DNA from: an uncultured Sphingorhabdus sp.
GTDB lineage: Bacteria; Pseudomonadota; Alphaproteobacteria; Sphingomonadales; Sphingomonadaceae
Length of the DNA: 64,000 nucleotides
Assembly (NCBI GenBank): GCA_947501885.1
Contig: CANMXN010000001.1
Coordinates: forward strand, 1,550,001-1,614,000
Direction of reading: 5' to 3'
Position numbers and translations under genes: made by a program. The notes below the pieces were generated by a model that was not told the DNA's origin, made no database searches, and worked only from the letters and a program-made list of their open reading frames with translations. Of this stretch, positions 34,591 through 42,953 are shown piece by piece; position 1 is the stretch's first letter, and every line of letters begins with the position of its first letter.

Positions 34591-35460
34591 ATGAACGAAT
34601 GGGTGGTCGGAATTATCGGTGGATCAGGCCTATATCAATTGGATCTATTGGAAAACCCGCAATGGATTGCAGTCAATTCACCATGGGGTAAACCATCCGA
34701 TGAATTATTGATCGGACATATCGCAGGGGTAAAATGTGTGTTCTTACCGCGTCACGGGCGCGGGCATCATATCGGCCCAAGTCAATTAAATTTTCGCGCC
34801 AATATAGACATTATGAAGCGCGCAGGTGTGACCGACTTACTCTCAATTTCGGCCATAGGGTCTTTGTGTGAAGAAATGGCTCCAGGCGATTTTATCACAG
34901 TCGATCAATTTATTGACCGTACATTTGCCCGTGAAAAAAGCTTCTTCGGAGACGGTATAGTGGCGCATGTTTCGATGGCCGAACCAACCTGCCCTAGATT
35001 ATCTGATCTCGCTGTATCCGCAGCACAGATGGCAGGGGCCAAGGTCCATCGCTCTGGCACATATTTAGCGATGGAAGGGCCGCAATTCTCGTCCAAAGCA
35101 GAAAGCCATATGTACCGCAGTTGGGGGGCAGATGTGATCGGTATGACTGCTATGCCTGAGGCAAAATTAGCCCGCGAAGCTGAGCTTCCTTATGCGCTTA
35201 TCGGGATGGTAACCGATTATGATTGTTGGCGCGAAAATGAAGAGGCGGTTGAGGTAGAAGCGATTATCGCGCAATTGCAAAGCAATGCTGAAAAAGCGCG
35301 TGCATTAATCACATATTTGATCGAAGCCTTGCCCAAAAAACGCGAAGCTAGCCCTATAGATACTGTGCTAGATTTTGCTATGATTACCGATCCAGCAGTG
35401 CGAAATAAAAAGCTTGCCGCCAAGCTAGATGCGGTTGCAGGACGTCTGTTAAAAACCTGA
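34591..35460 (+). CDS. mtnP: S-methyl-5'-thioadenosine phosphorylase
   Basis: A 289-aa purine phosphorylase that splits 5'-modified 5'-deoxyadenosines, normally 5'-methylthioadenosine, into adenine and the sugar 1-phosphate. Family blocks are IGGSGLYQ, LPRHGRGHHIGPSQLNFRAN, AIGSLCEEMAPGDF, and the active-site GTYLAMEGPQFSSKAESHMYRSW with MTAMPEAKLAREAELPYA, then TDYDCW. It is preceded by GGGAG. It is convergent with the radical SAM gene of the arsenic cluster. This adjacency raises the possibility that it also removes adenine from an arsenical nucleoside, which is inference. Confidence 0.93.
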   Translation: MNEWVVGIIGGSGLYQLDLLENPQWIAVNSPWGKPSDELLIGHIAGVKCVFLPRHGRGHHIGPSQLNFRANIDIMKRAGVTDLLSISAIGSLCEEMAPGDFITVDQFIDRTFAREKSFFGDGIVAHVSMAEPTCPRLSDLAVSAAQMAGAKVHRSGTYLAMEGPQFSSKAESHMYRSWGADVIGMTAMPEAKLAREAELPYALIGMVTDYDCWRENEEAVEVEAIIAQLQSNAEKARALITYLIEALPKKREASPIDTVLDFAMITDPAVRNKKLAAKLDAVAGRLLKT

Positions 35461-35469
35461 TCCATAAAA

Positions 35470-35603
35470 CAGTTTGTGCTGCCTTTTTACACGGAGCAGC
35501 TTGCACCGACATTTAATCTATAAAGCGGCTCGCGCCGACCCTATACACTGAGCGGCTTGCGCCACCCTTTATACGGAGCAGCTTGCGCCGCCTAGGACAC
35601 AAA
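35470..35603. repeat. Short degenerate tandem repeat at the 3' end of the radical SAM gene
   Basis: Four clear copies and a weaker fifth of a roughly 26-29 bp unit lie in a row. On the minus strand the core reads GGCGCAAGCTGCT with small variations. The first copy is the last codons and stop of the radical SAM gene (coding Gly-Ala-Ser-Cys-Ser-Val); the others run on into the gap towards mtnP. The copies are not in frame with each other. Confidence 0.75.
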
Positions 35604-36540
35604 AGCGCGCACAATGAGGATGATTTAATTTTATATCCTGCATCGATTCCTCCAGAGTTTGCCCCATATCAAAGCCCTTATCATAAGGCAGCAATGTACA
35701 AGCGGCAACACGCGGCGTTACCTCGCCTTTTCGTTTTACCACCATACGGCTATTGGCGCACATAATAGTGGCAGGATCAACATCCAATATTCCCCAACAT
35801 GATGTTGTGATTTCTGCCACATCAGCGCTGGCATCCATTTCTGGAAATAGCATCAAATGGGATGGGTTGCTCGCATCCAACGGCAGTTTCATTGCATCAA
35901 ATAATCCAGCATAGCCTTGCATAGCTGAAGCATTGCTCTCACCTGGTAAATGCCGCCCTGCAATTGCCAAGTGAAAATTGTTCGCAGCCAACCAACACAA
36001 TCCATCAATCGCCTTATCCCAACTATTAGGGCCGCGTTCCTCTTCGTGAATGGTTTTGGTAAAATGATCCAAACTCACGCGAAATGTTATTTTCTCACGT
36101 TTGGGAAGTGCCAGCAATTGCGTCTCAAACCGCCGCATTGGCCGCATTGCATTCGATAATATTAAAATATCAAAATCATGCTCTAAACATAGCTCTAATA
36201 TTGCTATCATATCGGGGTTCATAAATGGTTCACCACCCGTAAAAGCAATTTCTTTGATGGGCAGCCTCTTTTGGGCAATTTCATCCAAATAGGCCCGTAC
36301 TTCATCCAATGTAATATAGACTAAGGCATCATTTTTTGGCGAGCTCTCGATATAACAATTTTTACACGCCAAATTACACAAAGTCCCTGTATTGAACCAT
36401 AGGGTCTCAAATTGTGTCATAGCCACAGAGGCGCGCATTTCACCTTTGGCCGTTATATCAGGGTCTTGAAATTTATCTTTTGCAAGCGTGCGGATATTAT
36501 TTTCAATAAAGGGCGAGAGTGTTTCGGTTTGTACTGACAT
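35569..36540 (-). CDS. Radical SAM protein in an arsenosugar-type cluster
   Basis: A 323-aa radical SAM enzyme. The 4Fe-4S CxxxCxxC motif is Cys55, Cys59, Cys62 in TLCNLACKNCYIESSP, followed by GGEP at 102-105. The C-terminal part has six more Cys (248, 261, 281, 310, 314, 321) arranged like a SPASM/twitch auxiliary-cluster domain. It lacks the CNQxCxHCHVDAGP start and DUF3641-like tail of canonical ArsS. It is divergent from the arsenite methyltransferase and shares a 165-base control region with it. Its reaction is unknown; joining a 5'-deoxyadenosyl group to methylated arsenic, as ArsS does, is one hypothesis. Confidence 0.85.
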   Translation of the reverse strand: MSVQTETLSPFIENNIRTLAKDKFQDPDITAKGEMRASVAMTQFETLWFNTGTLCNLACKNCYIESSPKNDALVYITLDEVRAYLDEIAQKRLPIKEIAFTGGEPFMNPDMIAILELCLEHDFDILILSNAMRPMRRFETQLLALPKREKITFRVSLDHFTKTIHEEERGPNSWDKAIDGLCWLAANNFHLAIAGRHLPGESNASAMQGYAGLFDAMKLPLDASNPSHLMLFPEMDASADVAEITTSCWGILDVDPATIMCANSRMVVKRKGEVTPRVAACTLLPYDKGFDMGQTLEESMQDIKLNHPHCARFCVLGGASCSV

Positions 36541-36705
36541 AGTGACACTTTCGTTCTTTAGTGTTGATCGGTTACCAATAGATTGTCATGCAATTGACAT
36601 GATTTCCTATTATATGGTGATTCTTCTCTTTATTCAAAGCGCGCAGTAACTATATTATAGGCATAGCGAAACCTATTTATCGGTCTGAAATTAGGAAATT
36701 TATTT

Positions 36706-37761
36706 ATGAACCTTGAAAATAGCCAAAATTATTATGGTGAAGTCTTAAACGGATCAGATGATTTGCTCACTGATGCATGCACGATGGCCGATATGCCAAC
36801 ATTACGCGTTCGCCAAGCGCTGGCCAATGTGCATGAAGAGGTTAAATCACGTTATTATGGCTGCGGCCTTGTGGCCCCTGCGGCTATCGAAGGGGCGCGT
36901 ATATTAGACCTTGGTTCTGGCAGCGGCCAAGATGCTTATTTACTTGCCCAATTGGTCGGTGAGTATGGCAGTATTGTCGGCGTTGATGCGACCCCTGCAC
37001 AGCTTAAAGTTGCGAATGATCATATCGAATGGCATCGTGAAAAATTTGGCTATGCGCAATCTAACGTCAGCTTTATCGAAGGTGATATTGAAAAACTTGA
37101 TGAACTTGATCTTGAAGAAGGTAGTTTTGACATTATCGTGTCCAATTGCGTCATCAATTTGGTGGCCGACAAAGGGGCGGTATTTCGCGCCGCTCAGAAA
37201 TTGCTTAAGCCTGGCGGCGAACTATATTTCTCTGACGTTTATGCCGACCGCCGCGTCCCACAAGAATTGCTCAATGACCCTATTTTGCACGGTGAATGCC
37301 TATCGGGCGCGCTTTATTGGGGTGACTTTCTAAGCGTGGCTAAGGCCTCTGGTTTTGGTGATCCACGCCTTGTCAACGATCGACCCTTGGGCATTGGCGA
37401 CACTAAAATCGCTGCTAAATTGGACGGTATTAATTTCTTCTCGGCTACCTATCGTTTGTTCAATATTGCTGATTTGGAACCCGAATGCGAAGATTATGGC
37501 CAAGCCGTTGTCTACAAAGGTGGCGTGGTTGATCAAGAGCGGCTTTTCATCCTTGATAAAGGCCATGAAATAGAAGCAGGAAGAGCCTTTCTAATCTGCG
37601 GCAATAGCTGGAAAATGCTTGCCAATAGCCGCTTTCATAAATATTTTGAATTTGTCGGTGATTTTTCCAAACATTATGGCGTGTTTGAGGGATGCGGTGG
37701 CGGTATGCCCTATGATATTGTGGCCCAAGACGAAGAAGCCGCTCCTGCATCATGCTGTTAG
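36706..37761 (+). CDS. arsM: Arsenite methyltransferase ArsM (AS3MT type)
   Basis: It transfers methyl groups from SAM to arsenite, giving mono-, di- or trimethylated arsenicals. The 351-aa protein resembles the animal/algal AS3MT group: SRYYGCGLVAP, LDLGSGSGQDAYLLAQLVG, SNCVINLV, LKPGGELYFSDVY and GECLSGALYWGDF. All four arsenic-handling cysteines are present at 25, 53, 148 and 198. The SAM site is LDLGSGSGQD. The C-terminus ends in Cys-Cys, a possible extra As(III) site. The ATG at 36706 is preceded by a weak AGGAAATT. It faces two cluster glycosyltransferases convergently. Confidence 0.93.
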   Translation: MNLENSQNYYGEVLNGSDDLLTDACTMADMPTLRVRQALANVHEEVKSRYYGCGLVAPAAIEGARILDLGSGSGQDAYLLAQLVGEYGSIVGVDATPAQLKVANDHIEWHREKFGYAQSNVSFIEGDIEKLDELDLEEGSFDIIVSNCVINLVADKGAVFRAAQKLLKPGGELYFSDVYADRRVPQELLNDPILHGECLSGALYWGDFLSVAKASGFGDPRLVNDRPLGIGDTKIAAKLDGINFFSATYRLFNIADLEPECEDYGQAVVYKGGVVDQERLFILDKGHEIEAGRAFLICGNSWKMLANSRFHKYFEFVGDFSKHYGVFEGCGGGMPYDIVAQDEEAAPASCC

Positions 37762-37802
37762 AATATATAAGCTAACCCCTAAAAGAACAGCGCTCACAGC
37801 CT

Positions 37803-38534
37803 CTACCTTATGTCGGGATAATGGTCCGCAAGCCTCTCTCGTGCACCAAAAGCCCACATCAAACCAACTTTAAGATAAATATAATTAGCGCGCCATCGCC
37901 CCCAAGCCGTGATACGCCGATCCGATGTCCAGACCCAGCGATTTAGAATTTTGGTTTTACCAAAACGGGCAAGCTTAATACATAGATCTGCCTCTTCCAT
38001 CACATTAACGCGCTCATCACAGCCACCAACTTCCAAAAAATTCTGACGCCTAAAAAACATGGCATGATCACCATAGAGCAAACGCACACCATGAAAAAAG
38101 AAGAGCCTAGGCCGAAACAACATTGGCGTATACCAAGTCTTGAGCCAATTATGAATGCTTGACCCCCAGCGTGTTCCGTTTGATCCTGCGATACGGGGGG
38201 TAAAACCCGCTAAGGCCATATGTTTATCCGCCATCACATTTTTCATCACAGCAACTGCATCGACGGGCAGCATAGAATCGGCATGAAGGATACAGATGAT
38301 ATCACCGCTGGCTTTTGCTACACCATAGTTAATTTGCGATGCTCGTCCGCGCTTAGGGGCCAATAAGATTTGCAGACCAGCCTCTTGAGCAATTTTGATG
38401 CTATCATCACTGCTCTGCCCATCGATTATCAAAACCTCATCAGGTGCAGGCTCTAATTCCTGCAAAGCGGCAATCGCTTCTGGCAAGATAGCCTCTTCAT
38501 TATAAACAGGCATGATGATTGAGAGACGCACCAT
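37803..38534 (-). CDS. Family 2 glycosyltransferase, TIGR04283 type
   Basis: A 243-aa GT-A glycosyltransferase. SIIMPVYNEEAILPEAI starts the fold, LIIDGQSSDDS and CILHADSMLP hold the nucleotide-sugar Asp residues, and the late NVMEEADLCIKLARFGKTK with TSDRRITAWGRW is the hallmark of the rSAM/selenodomain-associated transferase 2 family (TIGR04283), whose members usually sit beside TIGR04282 proteins, radical SAM enzymes and ArsM. Probably adds a sugar in arsenosugar or arsenolipid synthesis. It overlaps the upstream TIGR04282 gene by one base. Confidence 0.9.
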   Translation of the reverse strand: MVRLSIIMPVYNEEAILPEAIAALQELEPAPDEVLIIDGQSSDDSIKIAQEAGLQILLAPKRGRASQINYGVAKASGDIICILHADSMLPVDAVAVMKNVMADKHMALAGFTPRIAGSNGTRWGSSIHNWLKTWYTPMLFRPRLFFFHGVRLLYGDHAMFFRRQNFLEVGGCDERVNVMEEADLCIKLARFGKTKILNRWVWTSDRRITAWGRWRANYIYLKVGLMWAFGARERLADHYPDIR

Positions 38535-39163
38535 TATAACTGTACATCCCTATATTCAGACAATAGCCAATCCCAGCGCTTTAAATCCTCTGGTTCATCA
38601 CAATCACTAAGTGGCCCTAACATATGCACCTTAAGCCCCATCGCATCGCATCGGCGCAGAGTTTCTGATAGCACTTGATCACTACTCCATGGCATGTCTC
38701 GTAATAATTCATCATATACTGAGTTCATACCAATCAGATAATAGCCGCCATCAAGCGCAGGGCCAACGACAACATCATATGTTCGCAATGCATTTACAGC
38801 ATCATTTACATGTGTTCGATTCAAATCAGGTGTATCCGATCCAAAAAATATAACGGGGGCTGGCTTTACCATAGCCAGCAAACGATCGCTTAAATCACCC
38901 TCTATTTGTTTTTGGAATATAATATTCTCACTGCCTAGCCAGTTTTGGAAATCGCCTTTTTCTGCCCCAGTATAAGATATGATAAAATCTACGTTAGCAT
39001 TATTTTTTGCCACTGAAGCGATAGTAGCCACAGTTTTTTGTGCCAATAGTTTATGGATTTTAGCAGCACCGCCTTCGCCCACTGCTGGAATAAGCCGCGT
39101 CTTGGCTTTCCCTGCCACAGGATAACGGGTAAATAATATCAATCGGATAGGTTCAATATTCAT
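38534..39163 (-). CDS. CofC/GT-A-like transferase, TIGR04282 type (DUF2064)
   Basis: A 209-aa nucleotidyltransferase-fold protein. LILFTRYPVAGKAKTRLIPAVG is the nucleotide-binding start, VIFFGSDTPDL the metal-site block, and VVGPALDGGYYLIGM the family signature of rSAM/selenodomain-associated transferase 1 (TIGR04282). It may make or transfer an activated sugar together with the TIGR04283 partner, to which it is translationally coupled (TAATG). The ATG at 39163 lies downstream of an AT-rich 196-base gap shared with the next divergent gene. Confidence 0.9.
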   Translation of the reverse strand: MNIEPIRLILFTRYPVAGKAKTRLIPAVGEGGAAKIHKLLAQKTVATIASVAKNNANVDFIISYTGAEKGDFQNWLGSENIIFQKQIEGDLSDRLLAMVKPAPVIFFGSDTPDLNRTHVNDAVNALRTYDVVVGPALDGGYYLIGMNSVYDELLRDMPWSSDQVLSETLRRCDAMGLKVHMLGPLSDCDEPEDLKRWDWLLSEYRDVQL

Positions 39164-39725: not shown

Positions 39726-39767
39726 TTGATAATATAAACCATAGGCGCTATCATCGATAAAGTGATA

Positions 39768-41747
39768 ATGTCTATGAACCGATATATATATATGGCCGCG
39801 GCGGTTTCTATAACCTCCGTGGCCTTTATTATTTCTCTTACGCGATATTTCGACATATCTGTAATATATTATGTCGCAGCCTTATCATTAGGCACCGCAT
39901 GTCATTTTATGATCTTGCGCAAATTAGACCATATGTCTGCATATCTATTTTGGTTCATCACTATAATCTTGCATATTGGCGTATTATTCGGTGTCGCCTT
40001 ATATGAAGATGATTATTATCGATTTATCTGGGATGGTTGGCATGTCTTACAAGGCACACCTTATGGTAAAGCACCCGCAATATTTTATACCGATGCCAAT
40101 ATTCCTGAATATTTATGGCCCATATTGGATAATGTGAACAACCCTGAGGTCCCGACAATATATGGCCCGACATTACAATTTATATTTGCTTTCACTTATT
40201 ATGTAGCTGGAACCGATCCCACTGGCTTGCGTATCATATTCGCGCTTATCAATCTCATATTGATCATAATATTATCACGCCGTTATCCGCTACATAAAGT
40301 CGCTTTATATGCATGGTGTCCACTGGTGGTGGTTGAAATTATCATCCATATTCATCCTGATGCTATTATGGCCGCGCTACTTGCTACGGGCCTCTATATC
40401 ATGCACCGCTATCCATTGCTCGCAGGTGCTTTATGGGGTGCAGCGGCTGCTACCAAGATCATCGCATTGGCCGCCTGGCCGCTTATGTTGCGTTATTCCA
40501 AAAAAACAGTGATAGCCGCTCTCATTAGTCTGTTTCTACTCTATGGTTATTTTGCCTTATTAGGGTCAAGTTTAGGGTTCGAATCGACCAGTACATTCGC
40601 CAATGAATGGCTGTTCAACCCGATGGGTTTTGATCTTCTCTCTTTAATATTACCGCAAAATATAACGCGCTTAGCAGCGGCAATAATCGGCATAACTCTT
40701 ATCATGCTCATCCACGCACGCACACGCAATAAAGAGCATCCACCATTAGCCGCTATATTTGCTATTATCTTATTTTTTGCCCCAGCCGTGAACAGCTGGT
40801 ATATGATATGGATATTACCATTCGCTATTAATTCACGCCAAATCTGGCCCTTTGTTGCCGCGAGCATCATCCCCTTAAGCTATATAACGGGCTTAACGCT
40901 CGATACCGAAACATTACGCGAGTTTGAGGTGCATCCTATCGCTTGGTCTATCGAAGCCATCGCCATTACTGCCGCACTTTTCTATGACTTTATCAATGCT
41001 AGGCAAAATAATAATCAAACATTATTGCACAGCACAGCTATTGATAAACCCAAAATTGCCGTCATCATCCCTGCACTTAATGAGGCACAGTCAATCGGTA
41101 ATGTCGTTCAATCTATTGATAAAACGCTCAAAGATATAGGTCATAACGCCCATATCATCGTGGTAGATAATGGATCTCATGATAAAACCGCTCAAATAGC
41201 CTCTCAAGCAGGCGCACATATCATTAATGAGTCTGAACGCGGCTATGGCGCAGCATGCCTAGCTGGAATAGCCGCTTTACCCCAGGATAATAATATTATT
41301 TTATTCATCGATGCTGATGGTTCTGATGTTCCCGAAGAAGCAGTGAATTTAATCAATCCCATTATCAACGGTAAGGCTGATATGGTGATTGGCTCACGTG
41401 CATTGGGTATAATGGAAGCAGGGGCCATGACCCTACCGCAACGCTTCGGCAATTGGCTATCAACCCGTTTAGTACATCTTATTTGGCAAAAGAAAATTAC
41501 CGACCTTGGGCCCTTTCGGGCTATTCGCCGTGATGCATTGGACCAGCTTGCTATGGCAGATCGTGATTTTGGCTGGACCATCGAAATGCAAGTTAAAGCA
41601 ATCCAGCAACACATGCGTGTCTTAGAAAGTCCAGCCAATTACCGCAAACGTATTGGCAAATCCAAAATATCGGGTACGGTAAAAGGCGTGATGGGTGCTG
41701 GCACAAAAATATTATATGTCATCGGCCGCGAAGCTTATTTCCGATAG
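39768..41747 (+). CDS. GT-C membrane glycosyltransferase fused to a polyprenol-phosphate glycosyltransferase
   Basis: A 659-aa two-domain protein. Residues about 1-410 form a polytopic domain of about eleven helices with an early acidic loop YEDDYYRFIWDGWHVLQG, as in GT87/PIG-M-like GT-C enzymes. Residues about 425-659 form a GT2 domain with VIIPALNEAQSIGNV, VVDNGSHD, LFIDADGSDVP and DLGPFRAIRR, as in dolichol-phosphate mannose synthase-like enzymes. One part may make a lipid-linked sugar and the other use it. The start could be 39762 (GTG), 39768 or 39774. Related fusions occur near TIGR04282/04283 genes. Confidence 0.85.
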   Translation: MSMNRYIYMAAAVSITSVAFIISLTRYFDISVIYYVAALSLGTACHFMILRKLDHMSAYLFWFITIILHIGVLFGVALYEDDYYRFIWDGWHVLQGTPYGKAPAIFYTDANIPEYLWPILDNVNNPEVPTIYGPTLQFIFAFTYYVAGTDPTGLRIIFALINLILIIILSRRYPLHKVALYAWCPLVVVEIIIHIHPDAIMAALLATGLYIMHRYPLLAGALWGAAAATKIIALAAWPLMLRYSKKTVIAALISLFLLYGYFALLGSSLGFESTSTFANEWLFNPMGFDLLSLILPQNITRLAAAIIGITLIMLIHARTRNKEHPPLAAIFAIILFFAPAVNSWYMIWILPFAINSRQIWPFVAASIIPLSYITGLTLDTETLREFEVHPIAWSIEAIAITAALFYDFINARQNNNQTLLHSTAIDKPKIAVIIPALNEAQSIGNVVQSIDKTLKDIGHNAHIIVVDNGSHDKTAQIASQAGAHIINESERGYGAACLAGIAALPQDNNIILFIDADGSDVPEEAVNLINPIINGKADMVIGSRALGIMEAGAMTLPQRFGNWLSTRLVHLIWQKKITDLGPFRAIRRDALDQLAMADRDFGWTIEMQVKAIQQHMRVLESPANYRKRIGKSKISGTVKGVMGAGTKILYVIGREAYFR

Positions 41748-41824: not shown

Positions 41825-42763
41825 TTATTTGCGCCGCTTGATCAAGCGCCATCCGCCAAAACCAAGCAATAATATTAGCAATAAAGCAAGGCCGCTATAC
41901 AGCGGATAGGCAGAGATAACCCATAAGGGTGAAATGCTATTGCTTACTTCACCTTTTGGAATAACCTTATCATTTAAGCGCCAGTCATATTCGCTAAACT
42001 CAATATCATATTCACCCGTTGCTAGACCTGCGCTTTGTTCTTCATCCAAACCTAAGCTCTCACCATAAAGCGCCAAAAATTCTTCAAGATCTATAGCATC
42101 GCGCCATCCTGCTTCAAAATCACCACGATACCAATCGAAAATCTTGGATACCGTCACAACATTGCCTTCAACAAAATTACGCTCTCTATGCGTCAAAAAT
42201 GCCTTGGTGGCGGCTTCTAATTGCGCATCAACCCTATCACCCGTAAAGGCTTCATTGATTAGCGGTGGACAACCAATACTGGCACAATTCACGCCAAAGT
42301 GAATGCGCGGATCATTATAGCGGCCACTTCCACGGATCATATCATGTTCAATATTATCCAGTGATAATGTTTGTCCCAAAAGTGGCACAAATTCTTTTTG
42401 CCATGGCGATTCAATTGCTCCGCCCAATTCTTTAATCGAGTTAAGGTCCGGATATTTCGTCAAGATCAAGTCTACCGTAAAAGCATTATAGGCATTGATT
42501 AGAAAGGCCAATTGCTCATCAGTTGACCATGTATCAAATGTTGCTTGATCAACCGCTGACAATTCATCCAAATAGCTTTGAAGATCAGCCTTCTGGTTAT
42601 TCACATTGGCATAATCAATATTGGATGCTCCGCCATCATCAAGCATGGTAACATTTTCTTTAACAATCGCATCCCATTTCTCATGGTTAAAGCTTTGCGC
42701 CATTACAGGCATAGAGACGCTCATCATCAACGGCAGAATGATTGGGGCTGCATATTTTAACAT
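41825..42763 (-). CDS. DUF547 secreted, membrane-anchored protein
   Basis: A 312-aa protein with an N-terminal signal peptide (MLKYAAPIILPLMMSVSMPVMAQS), a DUF547 domain and a C-terminal membrane helix followed by RLIKRRK. The DUF547 features are AFLINAYNAFTVDLIL, HFGVNCASIGCPPL and FLTHRERNFVE. DUF547 is a family of unknown activity with a thiol-protease/transglutaminase-like appearance, often found with rSAM-associated glycosyltransferases. I chose the ATG at 42763, behind GAAGGA; the upstream open frame to 42886 is not needed. Convergent with the GT-C fusion. Confidence 0.85.
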   Translation of the reverse strand: MLKYAAPIILPLMMSVSMPVMAQSFNHEKWDAIVKENVTMLDDGGASNIDYANVNNQKADLQSYLDELSAVDQATFDTWSTDEQLAFLINAYNAFTVDLILTKYPDLNSIKELGGAIESPWQKEFVPLLGQTLSLDNIEHDMIRGSGRYNDPRIHFGVNCASIGCPPLINEAFTGDRVDAQLEAATKAFLTHRERNFVEGNVVTVSKIFDWYRGDFEAGWRDAIDLEEFLALYGESLGLDEEQSAGLATGEYDIEFSEYDWRLNDKVIPKGEVSNSISPLWVISAYPLYSGLALLLILLLGFGGWRLIKRRK

Positions 42764-42953
42764 TGTTGGTCCTTCATTAAAGTTTGGCTTCATTAAGGGT
42801 TCAAGGGATAATAGATTTTTGTAACATCCCCTATTCGTATCAATATTATCCAAAGTTACATTTTTAATACGTCTTGACAATGACAATGATATATTTATCT
42901 ACCTTCTAGTAGGATGTTAAATTTATTCACTCTAAGATTATAAGGAAAATATA

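Follow-up and report, generated by a model that had tools for sequence, protein, structure and literature searches.

A radical SAM protein family related to ArsS and its association with arsenosugar-type genes in Alphaproteobacteria

A radical SAM gene beside arsM and two transferase genes

Arsenosugars rank among the main arsenic species of marine food webs. ArsS, a radical S-adenosylmethionine (SAM) enzyme, is reported to adenosylate arsenic, a finding credited to Cheng et al. 2021 in the available part of PMC12159101, where the bacterial arsenosugar makers named are cyanobacteria. According to the available part of PMC8552651, ArsS and ArsM act together at the outset of arsenosugar synthesis. 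We analyzed a 64,000-nucleotide stretch of DNA (the window) from an uncultured Sphingorhabdus sp., whose genome comprises 2.65 Mb in 21 contigs with completeness rated at 100%. Positions 34591 to 39163 hold the gene of a 323-residue radical SAM protein together with genes for an ArsM-type methyltransferase and for transferases of the families TIGR04283 and TIGR04282. An initial annotation had proposed that either a second radical SAM family carries out the adenosyl-arsenic step or the cluster makes a different organoarsenical. The first proposal is now the best supported, by co-occurrence with TIGR04283, the lack of ArsS, and partner genes shared with ArsS loci; the second gained no positive support. 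The features are as follows.

34591-35460, plus strand: S-methyl-5'-thioadenosine (MTA) phosphorylase (NF006492, 451.3 bits, cut-off 437)
35569-36540, minus strand: radical SAM protein, 323 amino acids (aa), ArsS-like, outside TIGR04167 (CxxxCxxC at 55/59/62; six C-terminal Cys, all invariant)
36541-36705, no strand: intergenic region of 165 bp between the divergent radical SAM and ArsM genes (from the gene layout)
36706-37761, plus strand: ArsM-type arsenite methyltransferase, 351 aa, C-terminal CC (Cys25/53/148/198; 55% identity to its counterpart at an Acinetobacter ArsS locus)
37803-38534, minus strand: TIGR04283-type family 2 glycosyltransferase, 243 aa (175.6 bits)
38534-39163, minus strand: TIGR04282 (DUF2064, CofC-like) transferase, 209 aa (177.6 bits; PF09837)
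41825-42886, minus strand: DUF547 protein of 353 aa, with the start called at a TTG (PF04784; 44% identity to its DUF547 counterpart at the Acinetobacter ArsS locus)

All five reading frames between 34591 and 39163 are open and have the sizes given by the initial annotation, which left the MTA phosphorylase, the fifth gene within these coordinates, unnamed. Both transferases were recognized by their profile hidden Markov models (HMMs): the TIGR04282 protein passes its cut-off of 134 bits, and the TIGR04283 protein matches over nearly its full length, just under its cut-off of 182. The best model for the methyltransferase is NF008823, at 150.7 bits below the cut-off of 263. Its Cys25, Cys53, Cys148, and Cys198, placed correctly from the start, do not vary in any of the 37 rows aligned, in which some organisms appear twice, and we take their placement to be the arsenic-binding arrangement.

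In the radical SAM protein, Cys55, Cys59, and Cys62 lie in CNLACKNCYIESSP, and six more cysteines follow toward the C terminus (248, 261, 281, 310, 314, and 321). These nine, described correctly in the initial annotation, are invariant across 45 aligned homologues, while Cys118 and Cys182 vary. No named NCBIfam family exceeds its cut-off among the best 25 of 43 matches. The ArsS model TIGR04167 gives 59.9 bits over residues 41-185 only, against a cut-off of 300, so the protein was rightly set apart from canonical ArsS. No canonical ArsS was found elsewhere in this genome: TIGR04167 matches the window protein best, and a second, weak match was rejected, since it is MoaA (357 bits). The AlphaFold model (mean pLDDT 92.1) finds its best Foldseek matches in BlsE, SkfB, and SuiB at a TM-score of about 0.56, all of which we take to be SPASM/twitch-type radical SAM enzymes. 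Among the matches listed, the nearest named record is from an uncultured Sphingorhabdus, with 83% identity in this protein. A literature search, with subscription papers outside its reach, returned no prior report of the radical SAM family and none of TIGR04283.

BLAST aligns the protein with ArsS over 142 core residues at 24% identity. Profile comparison with two ArsS sequences at default settings aligned residues 44-193 (probability 97.6); with eight ArsS sequences and a relaxed setting, residues 39-323 were aligned (probability 98.9). In this longer alignment, five of the six C-terminal cysteines face the five C-terminal cysteines of ArsS. The Cys tail had been thought unlike that of ArsS; we no longer use it as a feature separating the two proteins. 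The radical SAM family probably shares its architecture with ArsS.

Outside the five-gene stretch, the DUF547 protein is a probable further member of the cluster, and the 165-bp intergenic region presumably holds the promoters of both the radical SAM and ArsM genes. Between the TIGR04282 and DUF547 genes, 39762-41747 encodes a protein of 661 aa that carries a family 2 glycosyltransferase domain at its C terminus; homologues of the protein are present at two relatives' loci (L057 and L059). A scan of the window against Rfam gave no match.

Distribution and gene partners

We investigated the distribution of these genes in 99 genomes of the host family. Full orthologues of the radical SAM protein (54-100% identity) are found in 28, the window's own genome counted, and a fragment at a contig end in a further genome (G037) makes 29 carriers; weaker matches of 25-33% identity in five more genomes were left out of the count. 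TIGR04283 above 150 bits is present in exactly these 29, the best score among the other 70 being 85.8 bits. ArsM of the window type (above 500 bits; next best 48 bits) is found in 18 of the 29 carriers and in none of the 70 noncarriers, weaker generic methyltransferase matches not being counted; the wider model NF008823 at an E value of 1e-25 recovers the same 18 genomes and no others. No ArsS was found at 1e-20 in any of the 99. An SDR protein that adjoins the cluster in relatives occurs in 25 of 29 carriers versus 0 of 70 others at 1e-30, and an FAD oxidoreductase with 45% identity or more in 26 versus 0. The oxidoreductase was rejected as a specific marker, because noncarriers hold copies up to 40% identical. 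The window genome itself has no SDR match at 1e-30 and an oxidoreductase at 40% identity only.

Rows of the match tables, read by eye, place the radical SAM gene within 10 kb of TIGR04283 in 24 of the 29 carriers and within 10 kb of arsM in 16 of 18; in two genomes (G001 and G095) all three genes are present and far apart. An MTA phosphorylase gene adjoins the radical SAM gene in at least 7 of the 29, window included.

A sample of 385 alphaproteobacterial genomes was searched with a profile built from the 28 orthologues (E value 1e-25). The radical SAM family was found in 115 and TIGR04283, at 1e-32, in 143. TIGR04283 accompanies the family in 108 of 115 carriers, seven lacking it at this threshold, versus 35 of 270 noncarriers (Fisher P = 6e-55; all P values here are nominal, the species being related and not independent). 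ArsS at 1e-30 occurs in two genomes, both with TIGR04283 (146-148 bits) and neither with the new radical SAM gene; thus, no genome searched for both holds both, ArsS having been found in two only. In 124 of the 385 genomes, neither ArsS carrier among them, a match exceeds the cut-off of the NCBIfam model named "TIGR04283 family arsenosugar biosynthesis glycosyltransferase."

ArsM outside the host family was sought with NF008823 (1e-25) in 80 chosen genomes: 45 carriers (of 112), 12 with TIGR04283 only (of 35; both ArsS genomes included), and 23 with neither (of 232; taken from 40 drawn, many with small genomes). Matches were found in 12, 0, and 1 of these, respectively, or 12 of 45 carriers versus 1 of 35 controls (P = 0.003). 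Both ArsS carriers were among the genomes without a match. One in-frame TGA each was seen in two of the ArsM matches (G190:C75:16268-16837 and G290:C88:32865-33449), which may be broken genes or may encode selenocysteine.

The concern raised in the initial annotation, that homologues might occur mostly away from ArsM and TIGR04283, holds in part. As physical linkage to TIGR04283 it holds outside the host family, where 13 carriers have both genes within 10 kb (16 in the whole class sample; among the matches listed, by eye). At the level of whole genomes it fails, with TIGR04283 in 108 of 115 carriers. For ArsM, too, it holds in part: 18 of 29 carriers in the host family have ArsM, and only 12 of the 45 examined outside it, six of these by partial matches.

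A scan of contigs returned at least 590 relatives of the radical SAM protein, and the best 80 loci, some of them short, were compared by tblastn. ArsM was found at 17, TIGR04283-like proteins at 33, TIGR04282-like proteins at 36, MTA phosphorylase at 10, SDR at 25, and the FAD oxidoreductase at 30. Among culturable marine carriers, the loci of Aurantiacibacter and Alteriqipengyuania include ArsM, and that of Qipengyuania does not. The partner-bearing loci are mostly from sphingomonads, and most of the loci from other bacteria have no partner genes nearby. Exceptions are five loci of other Alphaproteobacteria with transferases beside the radical SAM gene (L066, L099, L116, L127, and L135). Two further loci outside the host family hold ArsM, radical SAM, and both transferases together (L179 and L180). 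On a Roseomonas plasmid, the new protein, annotated plainly as "radical SAM protein," is accompanied by TIGR04282, DUF547, a second radical SAM protein, a phosphonate-type ABC transporter, and a phosphoesterase. At one locus (L131), a calcineurin-like phosphoesterase and the radical SAM protein share one open reading frame, and homologues of this phosphoesterase occur at ten further radical SAM loci, Roseomonas included.

Eight canonical ArsS loci were examined for the same partners. Two alphaproteobacterial loci (L169 and L170) hold TIGR04282, a VTT-FAD oxidoreductase, ArsS with an adjoining MTA phosphorylase homologue, TIGR04283, a phosphoesterase, and PhnD/E homologues 57-63% identical to the Roseomonas counterparts. 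The Cupriavidus locus, unannotated and read by tblastn, has ArsM (30%), an FAD oxidoreductase, TIGR04282/04283-like proteins, and MTA phosphorylase. The Acinetobacter locus combines VTT-FAD, DUF547, TIGR04283, TIGR04282, and a methyltransferase, its methyltransferase and DUF547 protein being the relatives of the window proteins listed above. Family 2 glycosyltransferase, sterol desaturase, and TIGR04282 are found in Thiodictyon; VTT, a "mercuric reductase," and ArsM in Pseudanabaena; and DUF547, TIGR04283, and an epimerase in Hymenobacter. Burkholderia glumae has, of these partners, only DUF547 and the second radical SAM protein; a "hypothetical" protein beside its ArsS matches no Pfam family and was not counted as a phosphoesterase. 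No single ArsS locus of the eight carries the full set, which is spread between them. DUF547 recurs at the ArsS loci of Acinetobacter, Hymenobacter, and B. glumae as well as at the Roseomonas radical SAM locus. ArsS and the new family have common partners at their loci and therefore draw on one partner set.

Some further observations concern these loci. The second radical SAM protein, of about 460 aa (L190 4592-5971 and L192 9072-10469, 52% identical to each other), adjoins the new radical SAM gene in Roseomonas and lies near arsS in B. glumae, in both cases close to DUF547; its best NCBIfam match is TrsS, far below the cut-off. In three single-contig genomes of 1.2-1.3 Mb (L171, L172, and L173), the new radical SAM gene adjoins a gene for a VTT-domain membrane protein. 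A Marinobacter homologue (35%) proved of no use, being unannotated, in two pieces, and with an ORF of only 200 aa; no arsenic gene is annotated within 8 kb of it. No radical SAM protein is annotated within 7 kb of the ArsM gene of a Nitrobacter plasmid.

Proposed pathway and alternatives

Partner genes and a probable architecture shared with ArsS, together with the lack of co-occurrence with ArsS, make it most likely that the radical SAM protein performs the ArsS step. We consider it probable that this diverged ArsS-like family adenosylates trivalent dimethylarsenic and that the phosphorylase and the transferases then build an arsenosugar. The gene identities, the co-occurrence, the shared partners, and the homology to ArsS are established, and from them we infer the chemistry of every step.

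Judging by its family, ArsM would methylate As(III) to trivalent dimethylarsenic. In the radical SAM protein, conservation and fold suggest that Cys55, Cys59, and Cys62 bind the [4Fe-4S] cluster and SAM and that the C-terminal cysteines bind an auxiliary cluster. By analogy with ArsS, the enzyme would join the 5'-deoxyadenosyl group of SAM to arsenic, and the product after oxidation would be 5'-deoxy-5'-dimethylarsinoyl-adenosine. The adjoining MTA phosphorylase, or a paralogue, could then remove adenine to leave an arsenic-bearing ribose 1-phosphate, a role suited to the predicted product of the radical SAM step, which amounts to MTA whose sulfur is replaced by arsenic. The CofC-like TIGR04282 protein and the TIGR04283 glycosyltransferase would activate the sugar and place it on an acceptor, perhaps a lipid. 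Accessory roles in redox chemistry, transport, or trimming may fall to the other proteins recurring at the loci of relatives, namely the FAD oxidoreductase, VTT, DUF547, the phosphoesterase, and the PhnD/E-like transporter.

Several observations weigh against the pathway proposed here. The radical SAM protein scores higher with the Rv1681 family model than with the ArsS model, its end-to-end alignment with ArsS was reached only by using eight ArsS sequences under a relaxed setting, and taken by themselves the C-terminal halves align weakly (E value 4.5e-4, probability 33%). The arsenosugar label of TIGR04282 and TIGR04283, as we understand it, itself rests on association with ArsS. Of the 35 noncarriers with TIGR04283, only two have ArsS; in the remaining 33 genomes, with neither ArsS nor the new radical SAM gene, another type of radical SAM protein may serve the transferases, or these may act without one. 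Outside the host family, the radical SAM gene usually lies far from TIGR04283. No ArsM is recognized in 11 of the 29 host family carriers or in 33 of the 45 carriers tested outside; of the 12 outside matches, six span under half of the model and two of the longer ones carry an in-frame TGA, and with the six longer matches alone the contrast has a P value of 0.10. The window MTA phosphorylase may be a housekeeping copy. Finally, zwf/pgl/pgi genes adjoin the radical SAM gene in nine loci (L094, L106, L110, L117, L120, L128, L132, L134, and L136; identities checked on L120 and L136), most of which bear Rhodobacteraceae-type names, one being labelled Enemella.

These gaps in ArsM, the weak association outside the host family, and the wide spread of the radical SAM family (115 of 385) would fit a TIGR04282/04283 pathway that is not specific for arsenic in Alphaproteobacteria, with the radical SAM protein adenosylating another acceptor and ArsM having joined in some lineages only. 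We regard this as unlikely, though the strongest of the alternatives. Within the host family, ArsM follows the carriers (18 of 29 versus 0 of 70), and clusters of ArsM with the radical SAM gene recur outside it (L179 and L180). Methylarsenic can be taken up, and the two ArsS carriers lack ArsM as well; its absence is therefore no mark of a pathway unrelated to arsenic.

An ArsL-like enzyme is a poorer candidate still. ArsL is predicted to transfer an aminocarboxypropyl group in arsinothricin biosynthesis, and, according to the available part of PMC8552651, it likewise has a CX3CX2C motif and works with ArsM. The MTA phosphorylase adjoining the radical SAM gene would suit such a reaction, but the same type of phosphorylase adjoins genuine ArsS. 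The arsinothricin genes that this part of PMC8552651 describes do not include TIGR04282 or TIGR04283, and no ArsL model appears among the best 25 of the 43 matches, the presence of such a model in the library being unchecked. A function unrelated to arsenic, such as peptide or cofactor modification with an incidental place beside ArsM, is very improbable, since the peptide maturases SkfB and SuiB among the nearest PDB folds and the nine zwf/pgl/pgi loci are set against the TIGR04283 co-occurrence (29 of 29 versus 0 of 70; 108 of 115 versus 35 of 270) and the partners in common with ArsS loci.

If the adenosylation of dimethylarsenic by this family is correct, the family would provide most of the 124 Alphaproteobacteria that pass the TIGR04283 cut-off with the enzyme they otherwise lack. 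We suggest tentatively that it could be the ArsS-equivalent of the class, widespread in about three of ten sampled genomes, those of 1.2-1.3 Mb included, where canonical ArsS is almost absent. On this view, heterotrophic bacteria would commonly perform arsenosugar-type synthesis, with carriers that lack ArsM scavenging the methylarsenic that other organisms make. The family offers a gene and culturable hosts for testing arsenosugar production by heterotrophic bacteria and would exemplify a diverged route by which nature forms carbon-arsenic bonds with radical SAM enzymes.

Comparison with the Rv1681 family, ArsL, and ArsS

The Rv1681 family (NF049973) gives the radical SAM core of the window protein its highest HMM score, 92.7 bits, far below the cut-off of 380. 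A member on a Mycolicibacterium vanbaalenii plasmid (L197 4764-5762; 535.7 bits) has CNLACDYCCVASSP and differs in having no C-terminal Cys tail. Its gene neighbours encode a PhnD-like binding protein, CcdA, a disulfide oxidoreductase, a second radical SAM protein, and a methyltransferase; these surroundings partly resemble those of ArsS, as CcdA and thioredoxin are also found near arsS at the B. glumae and Acinetobacter loci. The Rv1681 family may also be arsenic related. Rv1681 together with radical SAM was not found in the literature search, which covered papers available without subscription.

ArsL resembles the window protein as a CX3CX2C radical SAM enzyme that acts on arsenic with ArsM as a partner. 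It differs, as described in the available part of PMC8552651, in its length of 428 aa, in the position of its motif (194-201), in the predicted transfer of an aminocarboxypropyl group, and in its arsinothricin genes, among which the transferase partners are not described.

ArsS forms one group in a 25-row tree (support 100/100), separate from the new family. The tree, which came with long-branch warnings, serves only to show this grouping; we do not take it as proof of a sister relationship, because long branches meet in it and the Rv1681-family row falls within the new family. The window protein differs from ArsS further in its additional Cys248, in HCARFC where ArsS has HC[FY]GC, and in its TIGR04167 score, 59.9 bits against the cut-off of 300. 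Its core motif, CNLACxxCYIESSP, is related to CNxxCxxCHVxAGP of ArsS, the C-terminal cysteines of MC, C, HC, C, and SC stand opposite one another in the profile alignment, which is weak for the C-terminal half alone, and the two families have the same partner genes.

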